Below, piece by piece: positions 13,746 through 54,852 of a stretch of 64,000 bases of DNA. Made by a program: the position numbers and the translations under genes. The notes beneath the pieces are model-generated. The model did no database searches. It had not been told where the DNA came from and saw only the letters and a list, made by a program, of their open reading frames with translations. How positions within the stretch are numbered: position 1 is the first letter of the stretch; every line of letters starts with the position of its first letter. The DNA comes from Streptomyces sp. MMBL 11-1. GTDB taxonomy: Bacteria; Actinomycetota; Actinomycetes; Streptomycetales; Streptomycetaceae. Location of the stretch: the NCBI RefSeq assembly GCF_028622875.1, contig NZ_CP117709.1, forward strand, positions 868,001 to 932,000, in the 5' to 3' direction.

Positions 13746-14255
13746 GGCCTCCCCCAGATCGGCCCCGCACCGCGGGGGTGGTCTTCTCCCGGTCGTCCTC
13801 GGCCCTGCCCTGCCCCGCCGCGCACCGTGCGTACACCGGCGCGCATCGGGCTGACGCGGGCGAGGTCCGTCCTGCGTCAATAAACGGCGCGAGCCTACTA
13901 CTGACCCAGAGACAACTCGAAGACACGTCCGGATGGTTTTCAGCCGCCCAGCTTGGACTTGATCATGAGTTGTCCCGGTTTTCCCGGAGATGAAATTCGC
14001 GAAAGCGACAGAGGGCACCGGCCGGACCCGTCGGTACCGGCATGTATCAGTTGGCTGGATTTTTTCGCTCCGTGACCTTCTGTTCCCTGCGGGCGCTTTT
14101 CAGGGGAATCTTCGGGACGGGTGGTTCGTCCATGTGTACGGGGTAGGCGCACGGTGGGGTCGTGCGCGGCAGGACGGACGTGTTCCGCCCGCGTAGAACC
14201 GGCGCAAGCCGGGCAGCCACCCTGAAGTCGGACAGTGGTGGGGAGTTGAAGGTCC
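13746..14255. other. Divergent intergenic region between cvnA and a small membrane gene
   Basis: 510 bp without a convincing gene. It must hold the conservon promoter and the promoter of the plus-strand gene; I could not assign either with confidence. Just before the plus-strand start, 14199-14212 forms a hairpin CCGGC-GCAA-GCCGG with a GNRA tetraloop. CCACC at 14217 can then pair with GGTGG at about 14237, so the leader of that gene may be structured. Confidence 0.5.
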
Positions 14256-14726
14256 TTGAGCACGCAGGAACGCGGAAGCAGCGGAGTACCGGCGGCCGCG
14301 GATACGGAAGCCGCGGACGGGGCGCGGGTCCCGCGGCAGTTGTGGGTGGAGGAGCCGGCTTCGAGGCGGCGGATGCCCGACGCGGTGCGAACGGCCGCCG
14401 TGCGCGCCGTGCTCATCCTGTCGCTGACGATCATCCAGGCGATGGTCGCCTTTCTGAGCACCTTGACCGGCTCCTGGCTGGCCTTCCCGATGGTGCTCAG
14501 CAGTGTGGCCAGCACGGTGGTCGCCACCTGGTCGGTGCTCGACGTCTGGGTGACCCGGCAGGTGTGGAACCAGCGCAACGGCGTGGTGTCCATGCCGAGC
14601 AGTTCGGCCCGGCAGATACGTCGTGAGCGGCGTCGGTCCCGCCGGGCCGAGCGGGCGGCCGAGCGGGACGGTACGGGCGGTGGCATAGCCGGCCGCCGGA
14701 AGGCCGGAGACCTCTCCCGGGCCTGA
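14256..14726 (+). CDS. Small membrane protein of unknown function
   Basis: A 156-residue protein with two adjacent hydrophobic segments: VRAVLILSLTIIQAMVAFLS (about residues 49-68) and WLAFPMVLSSVASTVVATWS (about 73-93). A short amphipathic stretch and a strongly basic C-terminus (RRERRRSRRAERAAER) follow, probably on the cytoplasmic side. It starts at TTG 14256 with GGAG/AAGG-like sequence a few bases upstream; ATG 14373 is an alternative that would remove the acidic N-terminus. It is transcribed away from the conservon and towards the SMC-like operon, with a terminator between. I recognise it only as the type of small protein commonly found beside streptomycete core genes. Confidence 0.7.
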   Translation: MSTQERGSSGVPAAADTEAADGARVPRQLWVEEPASRRRMPDAVRTAAVRAVLILSLTIIQAMVAFLSTLTGSWLAFPMVLSSVASTVVATWSVLDVWVTRQVWNQRNGVVSMPSSSARQIRRERRRSRRAERAAERDGTGGGIAGRRKAGDLSRA

Positions 14727-14795: not shown

Positions 14796-17700
14796 CTACG
14801 CGCCGGGCCGCGGTGCCGGGGTTCCGGCGGCCGGCTGCTCGTTCCGTTTGAACATACGGGTCGCCGTGATCTCGCCGTGGACCGTCTCTCCGTCCGGGTC
14901 CTGCTGCGGCAGACCGGGGCGCAGATGCTCCTCCACGCTGATGTACTTGAGCCCGGCCCTCAGGTCCGCGTCGTTGCGCAGCCGGATGACGAGGGGGAAC
15001 TCGGCGAGCGCGGTCGTGTCGAACAGGCCGGTCGTGTAGAGCAGTTGCACGCCCAGGGCGTCCGACACCGCCCGCTGGAGCTCCAGCAGGTACGTGGCGT
15101 TGGCGCGGCCGATCGGGTTGTCGAGGAACAGGGTGCCCGCGTGCCGGTGGCGGTCGCGGCCCCGGTCGTTGCTGCGCAGGGCCGCCATCGTGCAGTAGAG
15201 GGCGATGGCGGCGGTGAGCAGCTGACCGCCGGAGAAGACGTCGCCCATCTGCCCGACGGGGACGCGCTCGGCGCGCAGCACGGCGTCCGGCTTGAGGATC
15301 TCCACCGCGATGCCCTTGGGGCGCAGCGCCGCCTCGACCCCCCTCAGCAGCAGGGACATGCCGTCCCTGCGCAGGTCGGAGTTCTTCTTGAGGGCGGCGC
15401 GGGTCGCCTCGTCGACGACCTCGCCGAGGCGTTCGGTGAGGGTGGCCTGGTCGGGTTCCTCGAAGCGGATGCGGAGGAATTCCTGTCCCGACCACTCCCC
15501 CAGTCCTTCGGGGAGCTGGGAGAGCCGCTGGGCGGAGCGCAGGGTGGTGAGCGCCGAGTCGACCAGCCCGCGCAGCCGGTCGACGATCGAGTCGCGGTTG
15601 CGTTCCAGCTGGATCAGCTCGTCGGTGAGGACGCGCAGCCGGGGGGCGAAGGCGTCGGCCCACTTCTGGGCGTGCTCGGGCAGTGCGGAGGCGGGCAGCT
15701 CGCGGATCTGCTGGCGGGCCGGGGTGCGGACCTGTTCGTACCGGGTGGAGTTGGCGTGCCGGACGAGGACGTCACTCGCATCCCGGACGGCGCTCTCGGC
15801 GGCCGAGAGGTCGGCGTTGCAGCCGCGCAGGGAGCGGCGGGACTCGGCCGCGGACTGCCGGGCCTCCTCCAGGGTGCCGGGGTAGGGGCCGGGGTGCTCG
15901 GCCCCGTCCTCCGCCCCGTGGTCGCGCAGGAGGTCCCGCAGCAGGGCCGCGGTTTCGTCGAAGCCGCCGGCGGAGTCCTCGGCGGTGCGGTGGGCGTGCA
16001 GCAGCTCGCTGTGGGCGGCGCGGGCGGTGTCCAGGGCGCCGGTGGCGGCGGCCAGCTCGGCGGTGGCGGTACGCAGGAGGGTCTGGGCCTCCTCCGCGTC
16101 GGCCGGGACCAGGTCGTCCGACAGTTCGGTGTGGTGCTGCCGCTCGTCGTCGGGGGCGAGCCGCTCGGCCTCGCCGCGCAGCCGTCCCAGATGCTCGCTG
16201 GCGGTGGAGGCGCGGGTCTCCAGGAGCTGGACGTGTGCTTCGGCGCGGGCGGCGGCAGCCTGACGGGAGGGGCCGTCGGCGCCGTCGGTGCCCTCCAGGA
16301 GCTGGGCGGCGCGGGTGCGGACCTTGTTGGTGAGGCGGTCCAGCTCGGCGCGGGCGGCGCTCTCGTCGCTCTCGGCGCGGGCCTGTTCGGCGCGCAGGTC
16401 GGCGCCGACGCCGACCTTCTCGTAGAGCTGGGACGCGGCCCGGTAGGCCTCGCGCAGGGTGGGCAGGGCGGTGCGGACGGCGGTCTCATCGGGCTCGGGA
16501 AGGACTTCGGGGACGCCGGCGATCTCGGCGCGCTCGGCCCGCAGGGCGCGGGCGGTGCGGCGGGCGTCGTCGCCGGCGCGCTGGGCGGCCCTGCGGTCCT
16601 CGTCGGCGGCGCGTGCGAGGTCGAGGCAGACGGCGGCGCGGGCCTCGGACTCGGCGGCCTCGTCGACCAGTTCGCGCAGCCGGGCCTGCCAGCCGGCCCG
16701 TTCCCGCAGCCGGTGGGCGAGCCCGGCCAAGGCGTCGGCGGCGCGGCGGGCCCGCTGGGCGGCTTCCTGGCGCTCGTCGCGGACCCGGGCGGTGTCGGCG
16801 GCGGCCTCGTCGGCCTCGGCGCGGGCGGTGCGGGCCTCGGCGAGCACGGCCTCGGCCCTCTCGGCCGCCGTACGGGCGGTGGCGGCGGCCTCGGCCAGTT
16901 CGGTGAGCATGCCGGGCGGGCAGTCGGCGCGCCAGGAGCCGATGCGGGCGGCGAGGGCGCGGTCCCCGGAGAGGCGGGCGGCGAGCGTCCTGATGTCCTC
17001 GTCGCGGGCGGCGGCACGGCTGCGCAGCGCGTGGCGCTCCTCGTCGGCGGCGTGTTCGTCGTGCATGGCCGGGTTCGGCGGGACGAGGAAGACGCCGTCG
17101 TTGTGGGCGTCGGAGCCGGTGCCGGGGGCCGGGACGGGGGCGAGGAGGGCTGCGGCGGTGCCGACGGCCACGGCCGATCGAGGCAGCAGGGCCGCGCCGC
17201 CGAGGACCTCGCGGGCGCGGGTGTGGGCGTCGGGGTCGGTGATGACGACGCCGTCGACGAGCTCCGGGCGGGCGGCGAGGACGGCGGCGTGGTCGGCCGG
17301 GTCGACGGCCTGCGCCAGGTAGCGCCAGCCGGGCAGGGCGGGGATGCCGTGCTCGCCCAGATACTCGACGGTGGCGAGGACGTCGGGGCCGGGCGGCAGC
17401 AGCCCGCCCTCGCCGAGCGCGCCGAGGATGCGGGCGTCGTCGGCGGCGGCGGTGCGCAGGTCGAAGAGGCGGCGTTCGGCGGCGGCGACGGACTGGTCGA
17501 GGAGGTCGCGCAGCTCGTCGGCGCTGCGGTCGAACTCCTCGGCGGTCAGCGGCTGCTGGGCGGGGCCGGGCCGGCCGGCGAGGGCCACCGCGCGGTCGGC
17601 GGCCGGTTCGGCGGCGGGGGCCGGGCCGTCGTCGGTCACCGGGCCGGGGCGGGCTCCGGCACCCTGGGCCGGTCCGGACGGTTCGTCGGCCCCTTCCCGG

Positions 17701-19568
17701 CGGGGGTGCGGGACGCCGGTGCCGGACGGGAGGCCCAGCAGGTCGCCCAGGCGGGGGTCGGCGGCGAGGGATTCGACCGCGCGGAGCTCGTCCTCGTAAC
17801 TCTGCTCGGCCGCCCTGGCCCCGTCGGCGGCGCGGGCGGCGGCCAGATCGGCGCGGCTCTCGGCCACGGCCGCCTCGCGGGCGGTGTCGGCGGCGGCGCG
17901 CGCGGCTTCGCGGGCGGTGTCCCAGGCGGCGACGGCGGACTGTTCGGCGTCGCTGGCGGCGAGGGCCGCGCGGGCGGGGTCGGCGTCGGGCGCGGTGTCG
18001 TCGAGCCAGCCCGCCTTGACGGCTTCGGCGGTCTCCTGGCCCACTTCGGCGAGGCGCTGGCGCAGGTGTCCGGCCTCGCTGCGGGCGCGCTGGGCCTCGG
18101 TGGCGGCGACGGTCGCGTCGCGGTGGGCGCGTTCACCGGTGGCCTGGAGGGTGTCGGAGCGCTCCTCCTCCTCGTTGGCGAGGCGCTCGCCCTCCTCGGC
18201 GGCCCGGTGCAGGGCGCGGACGAGGTCGGTGGCGGCGGCGCTGCGGGCGGCGAGGGCGGGGGCGGCGTCGCGTTCGGCCTCGCGGATGGCGACGGCGACC
18301 CGGGCGGAGCGGTCGGCGGCGGCCCGGTGGCGCAGGACGGCTTCGGCTGCCTGCCAGGCGGCGTGCAGGGTGCGGGCCTCGACCAGCTCCTTGCGGCCGG
18401 CGGCGGCGCTCCTCTCGGCGGCGGTCAGGGCCAGCGAGGCGTGCCGGTAGGCGAGTTCGGCGGCGATCAGGGAGCGGCTGCCCCGGGTGGACTCGGCCTC
18501 GGTGACGGTGTGGGCGGCGGCGGTGACCCGTTCGGCCAGCTCGGCGGTTCGGGCGCGCTCCTCGGCGGCGCGGGCGGTCAGCCGGCGGGCCAGGGTGCGG
18601 GTGCGGCGTTCGGCGCCGGCGTGGATGTCACGGGCGCGGTCGCGGGTGTCGGTGGCCTCGACGATCCGGTTGAGGAGGTCCACGGAGCCCGCGGTGAAGT
18701 CGCGTTCGGCGGTCAGCTCGGCGCGGCGGCCCAGCTTGTTGCCGAAGCCGCTGACCAGGTCGGCGAGTCCGTCGGTGTCGCGGGTGTCGGTGACGGCGCG
18801 GAGCAGGAGGTCGGTGAAGTCGGAGTCCTTCTTCACCGCGAAGAGCCCTGCGGCCTCGCCCTCGTCGGCGTTCATCTCGCGCTGGTAGCGGAAGAGTTCG
18901 GGGTCGAGGCCGAGGTCGCCGAGGTGTTCGTTCCAGCGGTCGTGGATCTCTTCCCAGTGCACGTCGAGGTGGGCGTAGAACTTGCCCGCGTCCATCAGCG
19001 CGTCGCGGAACCCCTTCATCGTGCGCCGTCTGCCGCGTGCGCCGGAGACGCCTTCGGCGGGGCGGCCCACGGCGGAGGACTCGGCGACGGGCAGGCTGTC
19101 CAGGCTGAGCCCGGGTCCGGGCCGGAACGAATACCAGGCCTCGGCGAACTTGCGGGGGTCGTTGGAGACCTGACGGCCGCGCCACTCGCTGACCTTGCCG
19201 ACGACGACGCACTCGCCGGTGAGGGTGTGCTGCCATTCCAGGGCGACGTGCCCGCAGTCGTCGGCGAGGAGGAACTTGCGCAGGACGCCGGAGCTGGCGC
19301 CGCCGAGCGTGTTGCGGTGGCCGGGGAGCATCACCGAGAAGATCAGCTTGAGCAGGACGGACTTGCCGCCGCCGTTCTCCAGGAAGAGGACGCCCGCGGG
19401 GGCGGGGCGGCGGGGCGGGCCGACCGGCTCGTCCTCGAAGAACTCCGCCTGGGCGGGGGCGGGGCTGGGAACGGGTGCGCCGACGCCGCGCAGGTCGAGG
19501 ACGGTGTCGGCGTAGCGCGCACCGGCAGGCCCGATGGAGTAGAGGCGGACCCGGGACAACTCGTACAT
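14796..19568 (-). CDS. SMC-like coiled-coil ATPase (MukB/MksB/JetC-type architecture)
   Basis: A 1590-residue ABC-type ATPase with the head split between the two ends and two long Ala/Glu/Arg-rich coiled coils between, the layout of SMC, MukB and Wadjet JetC proteins that extrude or clamp DNA. Walker A is LENGGGKSVLLKLIF at residues about 63-77. The signature motif FSGGQLLTAAIALYC is near 1445 and Walker B GTLFLDNPIGRAN near 1478-1490. The Walker B has Asp-Asn (codons 15117-15122) where SMC proteins have the catalytic Asp-Glu. A globular insert near residues 630-830 may be the hinge. It is the last gene of a kleisin-like/MksE-like/SMC-like operon and starts 64 bp after the MksE-like stop. Longer than MukB (about 1490) or MksB. 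Family call good; function (chromosome organisation or anti-plasmid) is inference. Confidence 0.85.
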   Translation of the reverse strand: MYELSRVRLYSIGPAGARYADTVLDLRGVGAPVPSPAPAQAEFFEDEPVGPPRRPAPAGVLFLENGGGKSVLLKLIFSVMLPGHRNTLGGASSGVLRKFLLADDCGHVALEWQHTLTGECVVVGKVSEWRGRQVSNDPRKFAEAWYSFRPGPGLSLDSLPVAESSAVGRPAEGVSGARGRRRTMKGFRDALMDAGKFYAHLDVHWEEIHDRWNEHLGDLGLDPELFRYQREMNADEGEAAGLFAVKKDSDFTDLLLRAVTDTRDTDGLADLVSGFGNKLGRRAELTAERDFTAGSVDLLNRIVEATDTRDRARDIHAGAERRTRTLARRLTARAAEERARTAELAERVTAAAHTVTEAESTRGSRSLIAAELAYRHASLALTAAERSAAAGRKELVEARTLHAAWQAAEAVLRHRAAADRSARVAVAIREAERDAAPALAARSAAATDLVRALHRAAEEGERLANEEEERSDTLQATGERAHRDATVAATEAQRARSEAGHLRQRLAEVGQETAEAVKAGWLDDTAPDADPARAALAASDAEQSAVAAWDTAREAARAAADTAREAAVAESRADLAAARAADGARAAEQSYEDELRAVESLAADPRLGDLLGLPSGTGVPHPRREGADEPSGPAQGAGARPGPVTDDGPAPAAEPAADRAVALAGRPGPAQQPLTAEEFDRSADELRDLLDQSVAAAERRLFDLRTAAADDARILGALGEGGLLPPGPDVLATVEYLGEHGIPALPGWRYLAQAVDPADHAAVLAARPELVDGVVITDPDAHTRAREVLGGAALLPRSAVAVGTAAALLAPVPAPGTGSDAHNDGVFLVPPNPAMHDEHAADEERHALRSRAAARDEDIRTLAARLSGDRALAARIGSWRADCPPGMLTELAEAAATARTAAERAEAVLAEARTARAEADEAAADTARVRDERQEAAQRARRAADALAGLAHRLRERAGWQARLRELVDEAAESEARAAVCLDLARAADEDRRAAQRAGDDARRTARALRAERAEIAGVPEVLPEPDETAVRTALPTLREAYRAASQLYEKVGVGADLRAEQARAESDESAARAELDRLTNKVRTRAAQLLEGTDGADGPSRQAAAARAEAHVQLLETRASTASEHLGRLRGEAERLAPDDERQHHTELSDDLVPADAEEAQTLLRTATAELAAATGALDTARAAHSELLHAHRTAEDSAGGFDETAALLRDLLRDHGAEDGAEHPGPYPGTLEEARQSAAESRRSLRGCNADLSAAESAVRDASDVLVRHANSTRYEQVRTPARQQIRELPASALPEHAQKWADAFAPRLRVLTDELIQLERNRDSIVDRLRGLVDSALTTLRSAQRLSQLPEGLGEWSGQEFLRIRFEEPDQATLTERLGEVVDEATRAALKKNSDLRRDGMSLLLRGVEAALRPKGIAVEILKPDAVLRAERVPVGQMGDVFSGGQLLTAAIALYCTMAALRSNDRGRDRHRHAGTLFLDNPIGRANATYLLELQRAVSDALGVQLLYTTGLFDTTALAEFPLVIRLRNDADLRAGLKYISVEEHLRPGLPQQDPDGETVHGEITATRMFKRNEQPAAGTPAPRPGA

Positions 19569-19632
19569 GGCGGCGGACTCTCGTCGTTCGGTGAGCGGAG
19601 GCGGAGCGGCGGGGAATGCGGGCTGGGCGGAG

Positions 19633-20580
19633 TCAGGAGTGGAAGGGCAGGCCCGCGTCGGCGGCCAGCTCCATGCTGTCGGGGTCGGGCGGCGGCAGCA
19701 GGGTGGCGGAGCCGTCGGTGACGGGGACGACGCCGAGCTCCAGCAGTTCGGCCATGGCGGCGCTGCCCGCCAGGTCGCGGACCTGAAGCTGGTAGCGGGC
19801 GGTGGTGCGGTAGGCGCCGCCCGCGTCGTCGCCGGTGCGCTGGAGGAAGCCGGAGTCGGTGAGGAAGGCGACGGCCTTGCCGATGATGCCGGTGGTGGAG
19901 CCGGCGAGCCGGCGGGCGTCCTTGGTCGCGCCGGTGGCGCTGCGGCGGGCGTAGACCCGCCAGCCGGCTTCCAGTCCGGGGGCGTCGCTGGCCGGGTCGG
20001 TGTTGTCGCCCTGTTCCTCGGCGCGCTCCTCCAGTCGCCGGCAGGCCTGGCGGACGAAGGCGTCGACGCCGTTGACCGTGATGCGGCCGATGTACGCGTC
20101 GTCGGCGAGGTCCTCGGGGCGGGGGAAGGCCAGGGCGGCGACGGCGAGGTGGGCGAGGCCGTGCAGGAAGCGGTCGGCGGCGTCGGAGGACGCGCGGCGG
20201 GCGTAGTCGCCCATGCGGACGGCGAAGACGGAGTCCTCGCCCGCGGTCACGGCCATCCCGGCGCGCGGGGAGACCTCCAGGACGATGAGGCCGAGGCCGG
20301 TGGCGACGGCGTCGGCGAGCCGGGCGAAGGCGCTCTCCTCGCGGTAGCGCCGCAGCAGGTCGGCGTATTCGGCGTCGCGGGCGGGCAGCAGCTTGGGCTG
20401 GAGCCCGAAGGAGACCAGGCGGGCGGCGTCGGCGGCGTCGGCCGGAGTGACGGGCGTCGGTCCGGCGGGCTCGGCGGCGCCTCCCGGGTGCGCGGAGTCG
20501 CCCGCGTACGGGGTGGCGGGCCCGGCGTACGCGGAGGGCTCGGTCCACGCGTCGGGGTGCTCGGCGTCGTGGTCGCTCAC
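19633..20580 (-). CDS. MksE/JetB-like accessory subunit of the SMC-like complex
   Basis: A 315-residue protein whose position (between a kleisin-like and an SMC-like gene) and predicted helix-rich, winged-helix-like content fit MksE/JetB, the subunit that binds the kleisin. The first 45 residues are low-complexity Ala/Pro/Gly. The folded part starts at DAADAARLVSFGLQPKLLPA. A middle motif RITVNGVDAFVRQACRRLEE and a C-terminal winged-helix-like stretch GIIGKAVAFLTDSGFLQRTG with a strand hairpin AYRTTARYQLQVRDLAG are visible. The ATG 20580 overlaps the stop of the upstream mini-ORF as ATGA. No enzymatic motif is seen. Assignment rests mainly on synteny and architecture, so it is moderate. Confidence 0.7.
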   Translation of the reverse strand: MSDHDAEHPDAWTEPSAYAGPATPYAGDSAHPGGAAEPAGPTPVTPADAADAARLVSFGLQPKLLPARDAEYADLLRRYREESAFARLADAVATGLGLIVLEVSPRAGMAVTAGEDSVFAVRMGDYARRASSDAADRFLHGLAHLAVAALAFPRPEDLADDAYIGRITVNGVDAFVRQACRRLEERAEEQGDNTDPASDAPGLEAGWRVYARRSATGATKDARRLAGSTTGIIGKAVAFLTDSGFLQRTGDDAGGAYRTTARYQLQVRDLAGSAAMAELLELGVVPVTDGSATLLPPPDPDSMELAADAGLPFHS

Positions 20581-20786
20581 GGCTGGGACTCCTCGGTACG
20601 GAAGACGTGCGGGTGCGGAAGGAGGGCGGGCCCGGTCGCGACGGACGACGGTGCGGGACTGTTCACGGCGGGGGCGACGAGGCTGTGCACGGCGGAGGCC
20701 GCGGGGCCGGTCACGACGGAGAGCGCGGGACTGTCCACGACGGGGGCGGCGGGACTGTCCACGACGGAGGCCATGGGCCCGGTCAC
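20577..20786 (-). CDS. Octapeptide-repeat mini-ORF coupled between SMC-complex genes
   Basis: A 69-codon frame that starts GTGA over the stop of the kleisin-like gene (20783-20786) and ends ATGA over the start of the MksE-like gene (20577-20580). This is the signature of translational coupling on both sides. Its first 48 residues are six imperfect copies of an eight-residue unit, for example VDSPAAPV, VDSPALSV, VTGPAASA, VHSLVAPA and VNSPAPSS. The rest is ALLPHPHVFRTEESQP. I recognise no homologue. It may be a genuine peptide, a tract that keeps ribosomes moving between the two large genes, or a repeat expansion in what was a spacer; the double overlap favours translation. Confidence 0.5.
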   Translation of the reverse strand: MTGPMASVVDSPAAPVVDSPALSVVTGPAASAVHSLVAPAVNSPAPSSVATGPALLPHPHVFRTEESQP

Positions 20787-20796
20787 GAGGCCTCCT
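20653..20796. repeat. Six tandem 24-bp imperfect repeats inside the SMC-like operon
   Basis: Units start at 20653, 20677, 20701, 20725, 20749 and 20773; units 4 and 5 share GCGGGACTGTCCACGACGG. The unit length equals eight codons and keeps the mini-ORF frame. The last unit runs into the 3' end of the kleisin-like gene. Confidence 0.85.
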
Positions 20797-22312
20797 TGCG
20801 GTCGGCGGCCATGCCGACGGCGTCCAGCAGGGCGGTGCCCACGATCAGGTCGGCGCCGCCGAACTCCGGGTCGTCCAGCTGTGCCCCGTCGTCCACGGCG
20901 AACAGCAGGCGGCGTTCGCCCTGGCGGTAGGCGGTGCCGACCGGCGGGCTGGCGGCGTGGACGGCGAGCAGGGCGACCAGGTACGGCAGGTCGGTGTCGC
21001 CGGTGCGACGGGCCTCGGCGAGCAGTCCGGAGAGCCGGCGCGGGGCGTCGTGCTCCAGGTCGAGCAGGGTCATGGCGCGGGCGAGCTGCTCCTCGCTGAA
21101 CCGGCTGTCGTCGGGGGTGGCGATGAGGTCGGGCTCGGGCATCTCCGCGCCCAGGTGCTCGCGCTCCAGCGGCGGGGTGAGCAGCAGGTCGACCAGGTCC
21201 CCGACCCGTACGGAGGTGGGGGTGCGCAGTCCGGTGCCGTGGGCGAAGAAGGCGTCGGTGGCCCGGGTGGACTGTTCGACGGAGAGGGGCAGGAGCGGGG
21301 CGAGGAGCTGCCCGTACAGGTCGAGGCCCGCGTGGCCGGCGGGCGGGGCGAACGCCTGCCGGTCCTGCTCCGCGCGGAAGAGGGGGCCCGCCTCCAGGAG
21401 CCGGGACTGGAGCTGGGTGTGGCGGCGGATGCAGTCCTTGACGATGTCGACCAGCTCGGCGGCCCGGCGCCTGTGCTCGGGGTCCTCGGCCTCGTCACGG
21501 GCCTTGCGGATGTTGGTGAGGATGGCGTTCTCGTGGCGGTAGCGGTCGGCCACGTGGTCCAGGGCCTCGGCGATCATGTCCGGGACGGTGTGGAGCCAGT
21601 CGACGGCGCGGACGTTGCGCCGGGTGGCCTCCAGGGTCCGGCGCAGGGTCTCGGCGTACTGCACGGTGCGGTAGCGGGCCTGTTCGGCGGCGAGTTGGGC
21701 GTCGGCGAGGCGGCCCCGGCTGATGAGGACCTCCAGCTTGACCTCGGCGGCGATCTGGGCGCTGGTGACATCGGTGTCCAGCGCGCCGACGAGGACATTG
21801 ACCGCTTCGTCGGTGGCGCGGAGGTAGACCGTGCCCCCGTAGCCCGGGACCTCTTCGATGAGCTTGAAGTCGTAGTCCCGGCGGACGTAGACCCCGTCGG
21901 GGCCGAACGTGCCGTAGACCGCGCGGAAACCGCGGTCGACACTGCCGACGTTGATCAGGTTCTCCAGGACCCAGCGGGCGACCCGTTCGTGCTCGGCGAC
22001 CGGACGGTCGGGGGCCTGGGCGCCGACCCGGGGCAGCAGTCTGGCCACTATCTGGTCGTGGTCGGCCCCGGTGTCGAAGTCCATGTTGAGCGTGACGTGG
22101 TCGATCGCGGCGAGGGCGACCTCCGCCATGGCGTACACCGTGTACTCGCCGGCCAGATTCGCCTTGCGGACGTCGAGGTCGTGCAGCGGCGCCGTGCACG
22201 CGAGCGCGCGCAGCCGCCGCGAGAGCCCCTCGTCGGCGGCGGGGCCCGGGGCAGGCCGCGGCCCCGCGCTGAGCTGCGGCGAGGCGGTGTCCGGGTAGGC
22301 AGGCGAAGTCAC
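20783..22312 (-). CDS. Kleisin-like subunit (MksF/JetA-type position) of the SMC-like complex
   Basis: A 509-residue, mostly alpha-helical protein and the first gene of the SMC-like operon, the position and size of MksF/JetA kleisins that bridge the SMC heads. Helical segments such as AEVKLEVLISRGRLADAQLA and QARYRTVQYAETLRRTLEAT are typical. It begins at GTG 22312 (VTSPAYPDTASP); a TTG at 22342 in frame is the alternative. I prefer GTG because TAATCT sits 7 nt upstream and no Shine-Dalgarno exists, which fits a leaderless mRNA. Its stop overlaps the following mini-ORF. No catalytic motif is seen. No JetD/MksG (Toprim-like nuclease) gene lies on either side. Assignment by synteny, size and helicity; moderate. 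Confidence 0.68.
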   Translation of the reverse strand: MTSPAYPDTASPQLSAGPRPAPGPAADEGLSRRLRALACTAPLHDLDVRKANLAGEYTVYAMAEVALAAIDHVTLNMDFDTGADHDQIVARLLPRVGAQAPDRPVAEHERVARWVLENLINVGSVDRGFRAVYGTFGPDGVYVRRDYDFKLIEEVPGYGGTVYLRATDEAVNVLVGALDTDVTSAQIAAEVKLEVLISRGRLADAQLAAEQARYRTVQYAETLRRTLEATRRNVRAVDWLHTVPDMIAEALDHVADRYRHENAILTNIRKARDEAEDPEHRRRAAELVDIVKDCIRRHTQLQSRLLEAGPLFRAEQDRQAFAPPAGHAGLDLYGQLLAPLLPLSVEQSTRATDAFFAHGTGLRTPTSVRVGDLVDLLLTPPLEREHLGAEMPEPDLIATPDDSRFSEEQLARAMTLLDLEHDAPRRLSGLLAEARRTGDTDLPYLVALLAVHAASPPVGTAYRQGERRLLFAVDDGAQLDDPEFGGADLIVGTALLDAVGMAADRKEAS

Positions 22313-22325: not shown

Positions 22326-22382
22326 GGTCCTCGCACCGACAACGGTCGAAACGGCGTTTATGCGACCGGCCCCGGGCGGGGG

Positions 22383-26051
<3,669 letters not shown>

Positions 26052-54401: not shown

Positions 54402-54575
54402 CGGGTCCTCCTGCCTCTTCGGGCACGGACTCCGGGGCCTGTCGATGACGACAGAGAGACGGCTCACCAGCGGAAACGCCGAAAACCCGAGAACGGGAAC
54501 GCCAGGAACGCACGGCGTCACGGGAGACTCCCGGCCATGCGTCCGCCGACGGCGGCGTACCGATGACGAACCGCC

Positions 54576-54702
54576 GCGCACTGCCTCCCATCCGGACTTT
54601 CACCGTCGGTCCAGGAATCTCACCTGGTCAACCGGCCGCTGGCTGCGGACGGGTCGCGGACTATAACCGCCGGTTCGGAATTGCACCGACCCCGGAGTGC
54701 GC
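54576..54702 (-). promoter_or_regulatory. FMN riboswitch (RFN element) controlling the rib operon
   Basis: Read on the minus strand, the element opens and closes with pairing GCGCACT.../...AGTGCGC and contains the conserved RFN blocks GGGGTCGGTGCAATTCCGA, CCGGCGGTTATAGTCCGCGA, CCAGGTGAGATTCCTGG, and ACGGTGAAAGTCCGGATGGG ending in GAGGCAGTGCGC. All five arms can be recognised. The 174-nt expression platform to the ribD start includes possible hairpins; whether control is by termination or by hiding the AGGAGG site is not clear. Rising FMN would shut off all eight genes including the importer RibM. Confidence 0.96.
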
Positions 54703-54852
54703 TGCTACTGGTACGGAACCAGTCTGCCACGGACGCCTCACGGCCATGCGGGTGAGCACTGTGGGCTGGGTCACAGGAAACCTGGCGTGTTTCCATCGGC
54801 CGGAAGTCGACAACGTAGTCATCGGCGGGCCGCCGGGAAAGTTGACGCTTAA

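Follow-up and report, generated by a model that had tools for sequence, protein, structure and literature searches.

The stretch of DNA analysed here (the window) comprises 64,000 nucleotides of the Streptomyces sp. MMBL 11-1 genome (contig NZ_CP117709.1, positions 868,001 to 932,000) and carries a three-gene operon predicted to encode the JetABC motor of a type III Wadjet system without its JetD nuclease. Conservation of the motor without the cutter, on the chromosomes of Streptomyces and of some related actinomycetes, suggests that it is kept for another job, possibly chromosome folding. The reading preferred here, in which we place about even confidence, is that the locus encodes a type III JetABC motor retained without JetD that would work like MukBEF and MksBEF and probably, by analogy with them, as an auxiliary condensin. 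The genes of the operon are:

20783..22312, minus strand: jetA (type III), an mksF-like kleisin gene, with a GTG start at 22312 or a TTG start at 22342 in the longest open reading frame (ORF)
19633..20580, minus strand: jetB, an mksE-like KITE subunit gene of 315 amino acids (aa), called as an ORF, with a low-confidence N-terminal extension
14796..19568, minus strand: jetC, an mksB-like SMC ATPase gene of 1590 aa, called from its ORF, the JetC3 profile and motifs

The three frames are regarded as real genes because their GC content at third codon positions is 0.94–0.97 and because jetA, jetB and jetC orthologues keep the same order in related genomes. A first-pass annotation of the window had described kleisin-like, MksE-like and SMC-like genes in jetABC order, with an ATPase of about 1590 residues, and the ORFs agree with it on both points; that JetC is longer than MukB depends on a length of about 1486 residues for the latter. 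PADLOC profiles recognize JetA (JetA3, PDLC00567, 626 bits) and JetC (JetC3, PDLC00588, 1394 bits), and these curated profiles place both proteins in Wadjet type III. The conserved portion of JetA starts about 25–35 residues past its N-terminus. JetB has no PADLOC match; the JetB of a JetD-bearing Rhodococcus operon reaches no better than E 4e-4 and the one encoded in a Streptomyces plasmid operon matches nothing, implying that the PADLOC JetB models are weak for this branch. No Pfam or NCBIfam family scored above its cut-off for JetA, JetB or JetC.

Judged from its structure model, JetA is a kleisin subunit of the MukF/JetA fold, with MukF as the nearest structure. A Foldseek search with the JetB model returned MukE and JetB chains as its top six matches (E 0.025–0.12), including chains of 8dk1 and 8as8; the 50 rows listed by a second aligner are winged-helix proteins, with neither MukE nor JetB among them. 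The JetA result supports the kleisin relation that the annotation had proposed, and JetB is a putative KITE subunit of the MukE/JetB fold. JetC carries a Walker A motif (ENGGGKS), a signature motif (FSGGQ) and a Walker B motif (LFLDNP, at 15117–15122 on the minus strand). All three are invariant across the full-length JetC copies aligned from Streptomyces (14) and from a second family (10), labelled f18, which may or may not be Pseudonocardiaceae; they are recognizable, with changes, in 11 JetD-bearing JetC copies.

No JetD nuclease was detected in the operon or in the rest of the genome. The Pfam JetD models PF09983 and PF11795, each of which matches in the Corynebacterium glutamicum control, have no match anywhere in the window's genome, and neither does the type III JetD model PDLC00594. 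The last is considered the telling model, because two JetD proteins of Streptomyces plasmids that the Pfam JetD model misses score 194–205 bits with it; it was silent in 14 fixed control genomes, and five JetD genes of nearly full length turned up with it in other genomes of the same search. TIGR02679 also has no match in the genome and is equally silent in its controls. An 18-sequence JetD profile, run unfiltered over 2.08 Mb of DNA from 108 JetD-less loci, some of them truncated, gave a best E of 0.59. The annotation's observation that no jetD or mksG gene stands beside the trio is thus upheld by all three informative models, and the distant JetD gene that it had suggested seeking was not found with them in the genome.

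The operon is a near-constant feature of the genus. Core jetA was detected in 60 of 61 genomes and the jetC end likewise in 60, with one or the other in all 61; in the genome lacking a jetC-end match (G002) the contig ends inside jetC, and in the one lacking jetA (G050) a piece of jetC lies at a contig edge. JetA proteins of named Streptomyces are 86–91% identical to that of the window. In a draw from the family, searched with jetA only, 80 of 81 genomes from 17 genera gave a match; that of G362, the sole genome of its genus, is distant, and the orthologue is thus present in 79 genomes and 16 genera. A draw from the class yielded jetA in 44 of 296 genomes (28 from the window's genus, 15 from f18 at 61–64% identity and one weak match), and an Amycolatopsis JetA query recovered 43 of the 296, from the same two families. 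Of 16 core loci, the window included, 14 have three long frames, one has a shortened jetC (L056) and one is broken (L059); the jetC frame is interrupted in L056 and L067, which may be sequencing error. Relative to the window, eight pairwise comparisons for each gene gave ratios of non-synonymous to synonymous substitution (dN/dS) of 0.086–0.143 for jetA, 0.206–0.330 for jetB and 0.160–0.326 for jetC, values that indicate purifying selection on all three coding sequences. A contig from a viral collection also begins with a Streptomyces-type jetA (L167, 73–1509), which may be host sequence at the edge of the contig.

JetD-bearing copies in the genus are a separate class. PDLC00594 matches occur in 11 of the 61 genomes, five of them strong (E 1e-49 or better) and six weak and partial, away from jetA. 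The five genomes with strong matches are exactly those with a second, diverged jetA (27–53% identity), and JetD lies about 6.5–6.8 kb away from it; by these matches it is the accessory jet copy that carries JetD in these genomes, and the core copy does not. Near core jetA, no PDLC00594 match was found in any of 60 genomes, some of them on short contigs. In the class and family draws, second jetA copies were checked for JetD at four loci (L080–L083). Two fragments were also seen: a jetD preceded by only the last ~100 residues of jetC (L084, 10901–12426, in G240), a remnant of an accessory Wadjet system, and a half-length JetD match (G230:C82:12087-12584), the core jetA of that genome lying on a different contig.

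JetD-less operons are also found outside the Streptomycetaceae. No JetD was detected at the 15 f18 core loci in the DNA covered, eight of which extend at least 1.5 kb past jetC. A JetA alignment used to scan named genomes gave at least 559 relatives, of which the best 80 were kept; the ranking favours kin of the alignment's first row, and the set is no census. These 80 come from Amycolatopsis, Prauserella, Pseudonocardia, Actinophytocola, Haloechinothrix, Sciscionella, Qaidamihabitans, Streptomyces and Actinacidiphila, with single members from Cellulomonas, the Micromonosporaceae and a metagenome-assembled genome of the Streptosporangiaceae. JetD is present in five (L087, L115, L126, L128, L129) and absent from 67, with eight too short to score. 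Over all 125 loci, 89 are JetD-less, 17 are JetD-bearing and 19 are unscored, having less than 1.5 kb after jetC or lacking jetC.

Phylogenetic analysis of JetA argues against a single origin of the JetD-less state. An initial tree grouped Streptomyces and f18 against the other rows (88/94), before the Pseudonocardiaceae were added. In a 92-row tree, which is a quick tree with several weak forks, core Streptomyces and f18 are each set apart from the other labelled groups by a single branch, the Pseudonocardiaceae form further JetD-less groups, and JetD-bearing copies fall between and inside these groups. This tree left out L002, L003, L004, L064, L065, L083, L142, L059, L167 and rows of 450 residues or fewer, and kept eight named Streptomycetaceae after thinning. 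The JetD state changes six times on it and five times on a 45-row test tree, where two changes are forced by starred branches. A single JetD loss, with the JetD-less copies as one clade, was rejected (p-AU 0.0018) in a test on 45 of the 92 rows that set 34 JetD-less against 10 JetD-bearing copies and used JetA only, with a quick tree and long branches. As the JetD-less copies do not form one clade, JetD appears to have been lost or gained repeatedly, and repeated loss is the simplest account because the distant rows (L002–L004, L063–L065, L082 and L083) all carry JetD. Gain may happen too: in Amycolatopsis rifamycinica, jetD occupies a clean insert of about 1.08 kb directly after jetC (L115, ~16687–17768) that is absent from the same junction in the six close relatives compared, five of which have JetA, JetB and JetC proteins 94–99% identical to its own and no JetD found; the difference may reflect gain in this species or loss in the relatives.

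According to passages of PMC12647877, JetABC is the extruding motor of Wadjet and JetD is activated after extrusion is complete. In the reading preferred here, JetC dimers linked by JetA and JetB would bind DNA and extrude loops through ATP hydrolysis, as in other Wadjet and MukBEF complexes, and with no JetD to fire once extrusion of a small circle is completed, the motor would act without cutting. The DNA that it extrudes or entraps would most likely be chromosomal, and its most likely role that of an auxiliary condensin on large actinomycete chromosomes, alongside Smc-ScpAB; JetD would then be a detachable module that has been lost in this group and may at times have been regained. The hosts are mostly filamentous actinomycetes. 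Smc-ScpAB is the loop-extruding bacterial condensin, a family separate from the window complex, and is presumably present in the window's genome. Of the two roles offered by the annotation, a Wadjet relative lacking its nuclease agrees with the JetABC found without JetD, and the chromosome role is one that we infer from MukBEF-like complexes.

Several observations weigh against this reading. Searches of PDB sequences with JetA, JetB and JetC, and with profiles of JetA and JetB, found no useful relative, and none of the three matched PDB chains of MukBEF or JetABC. Confidence in the structure models is moderate to low, and the lowest MukF rows for the JetA model lie less than one Z unit from unrelated CorA. 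SMC proteins usually carry a catalytic glutamate after the Walker B aspartate; JetC has asparagine at this position, and its ATP hydrolysis is predicted from motifs. The Asp-Asn pair is common to all 35 type III JetC proteins aligned, JetD-bearing copies included, and is therefore interpreted as a type III trait and not as damage or loss. Finally, the operon is broken in one genome (G012), where jetA matches to about residue 475 with an internal TAG (L059), a piece of jetC (residues 674–1588, L168) lies about 1.2 Mb away on the opposite strand, and neither a jetB match nor the N-terminal half of jetC was found in either 20-kb stretch. This is an apparent natural loss of the core operon by rearrangement, which implies that the complex is not essential in that species. 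The annotation's suggestion of a conserved, unnamed housekeeping system agrees with the conservation seen, apart from the apparent loss in G012.

The main rival explanation, which we think unlikely though by some way the strongest of the alternatives, is a defence that needs no nuclease, in which JetABC would compact incoming circular plasmids or phage circles and silence or mis-segregate them, as Smc5/6 does with viral DNA. Streptomyces chromosomes are linear, and a complex that senses circles would spare them. The JetD-bearing relatives are Wadjet systems, some on plasmids, and compaction of circular DNA by SMC complexes against viral gene expression is discussed in passages of PMC10586767. 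Most defence genes come and go, however, as do the JetD-bearing copies themselves (5 of 61 genomes), whereas the core jetA is near-universal in genus and family and has shared neighbours at many loci.

That the locus is a working Wadjet system served by a nuclease gene at another place in the genome is improbable. In 6 of the 61 genomes, JetD3 matches that are weak and partial (E 2e-7 to 7e-4) lie away from jet operons, and the nuclease could be an unrelated one or a JetD of type II, but PDLC00594 has no match in 50 of the 61 genomes, all of which have jetA or jetC, and the window's own genome is without JetD by the three models above. There is an equally slim prospect that the locus is a reservoir motor into which JetD is swapped as a plug-in, the JetD-less form being a temporary state of a defence locus. 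The A. rifamycinica insert and the five to six changes of JetD state would fit such exchange; against it, PDLC00594 finds nothing near the core jetA of the 60 genomes that have one, some of them on short contigs, and in the window's genus the state therefore looks old and stable. It is very improbable that the locus is the decaying relic of a vanished defence system and has survived by chance: one broken operon and two interrupted jetC frames favour it, against dN/dS ratios well below 1, ATPase motifs invariant in 24 Streptomyces and f18 copies, and the retention of jetA in 16 of the 17 genera drawn from the family, with JetD-less operons in further families.

Several known systems resemble the window complex. 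The type III Wadjet operon on Rhodococcus pseudokoreensis plasmid NZ_CP070616.1 shares the order A-B-C, with identities in the best tblastn segments of 54% for JetA, 56% for JetB (the gene between jetA and jetC) and 43% for JetC; this operon and those of Streptomyces plasmids match the same PADLOC families for JetA and JetC and have the same Walker motifs, but in the Rhodococcus operon jetC is immediately followed by jetD. JetD-bearing type III operons occur on linear Rhodococcus and Streptomyces plasmids (L001, L002, L003). MksBEFG, or Wadjet type I, of C. glutamicum, E. coli GF4-3 and P. aeruginosa PA14 has the components predicted for the window complex, an SMC motor, a kleisin and a KITE subunit, but it also has MksG/JetD and restricts plasmids according to passages of PMC10123090 and PMC12647877, the former recording mksFEBG in PA14. 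MukBEF and P. aeruginosa MksBEF have the kleisin-KITE-SMC composition predicted for the window complex and are reported without a nuclease; their chromosome role has been shown, whereas that of the window complex is proposed. According to PMC7617805, MksG/JetD is missing from MukBEF and from several other members of the Wadjet group, and passages of PMC10586767 propose that MukBEF and MksBEF originated from Wadjet and that P. aeruginosa MksBEF, which contributes to chromosome organization, likely arose through JetD loss.

JetD-less Wadjet-group operons are thus already known as a class, and the Streptomyces operon is an apparent further variant; operons of the window type may be among those without MksG catalogued in PMC7617805. 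Passages of PMC10482375 report that 42% of Actinobacteria have Wadjet and that it is enriched at the ends of Streptomyces chromosomes, and mention no near-universal JetD-less copy. Passages of PMC13121528, PMC10123090 and PMC4255302 likewise make no mention of a JetD-less Streptomyces complex, and a literature search over titles, abstract openings and passages gave no description of one among the matches listed. A broader proposal, advanced tentatively and with less confidence than the preferred reading, is that an undescribed nuclease-free chromosomal SMC complex has arisen repeatedly from a plasmid-cutting immune machine, by loss of JetD, in at least two and probably three actinomycete families, and that JetD could be re-inserted after jetC to restore the weapon. 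Such operons would provide further cases of the step from Wadjet to a nuclease-free complex, in which sister copies with and without JetD can be compared directly, in Streptomyces hosts that are genetically tractable and have multigenomic hyphae and linear chromosomes. Should the complex fold chromosomes, Streptomyces nucleoid studies with smc-only deletions have covered just a part of what organizes them; should it silence plasmids without cleaving them, it would represent a new mode of SMC immunity.

Synteny, which the annotation had suggested checking, was seen at the Streptomyces loci compared, with the jetABC order kept in most and neighbours common to many. Of 15 core loci of the genus (20-kb stretches, some of which may be cut), 13 have a roadblock-gene match on the jetC side, while on the opposite side 10 have a HEAT-gene match and 8 an oxoprolinase match. 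Neighbours were clustered over 108 JetD-less loci (48 from Streptomycetaceae, 15 from f18 and 45 others, mostly Pseudonocardiaceae). A replacement partner was sought among the 28 largest clusters, and none besides jetABC occurs at a majority of the loci in each of the three groups; a mixed cluster of ~355 aa is present in 42 of the 108 loci (32, 5 and 5 per group) and absent from the window. Comparison by eye of JetB N-termini and of JetA between JetD-less and JetD-bearing copies revealed no consistent difference among the rows compared. Further features near the operon are:

20577..20786, minus strand: 69-aa low-complexity, repeat-like frame spanning the jetA-jetB gap, a composition-based call and doubtful gene
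14256..14726, plus strand: gene for a small, probable membrane protein, running convergently with jetC, a neighbour outside the operon
22383..26051, minus strand: oxoprolinase/hydantoinase gene (PF02538, PF01968, PF05378), the upstream neighbour

The annotation had placed the operon between a small membrane protein and an oxoprolinase. The Pfam domains confirm the oxoprolinase; the small protein is present, with hydrophobic stretches from which its membrane nature was judged by eye. Its gene clusters with counterparts at 30 of the 48 Streptomycetaceae JetD-less loci and at none of the 60 other loci examined, and oxoprolinase genes cluster in 19 of the 48. An ORF at 13940–14686 on the minus strand is an unlikely gene. 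Elsewhere in the window, a flavin mononucleotide (FMN) riboswitch lies at 54574–54704 on the minus strand (Rfam RF00050, 97 bits).

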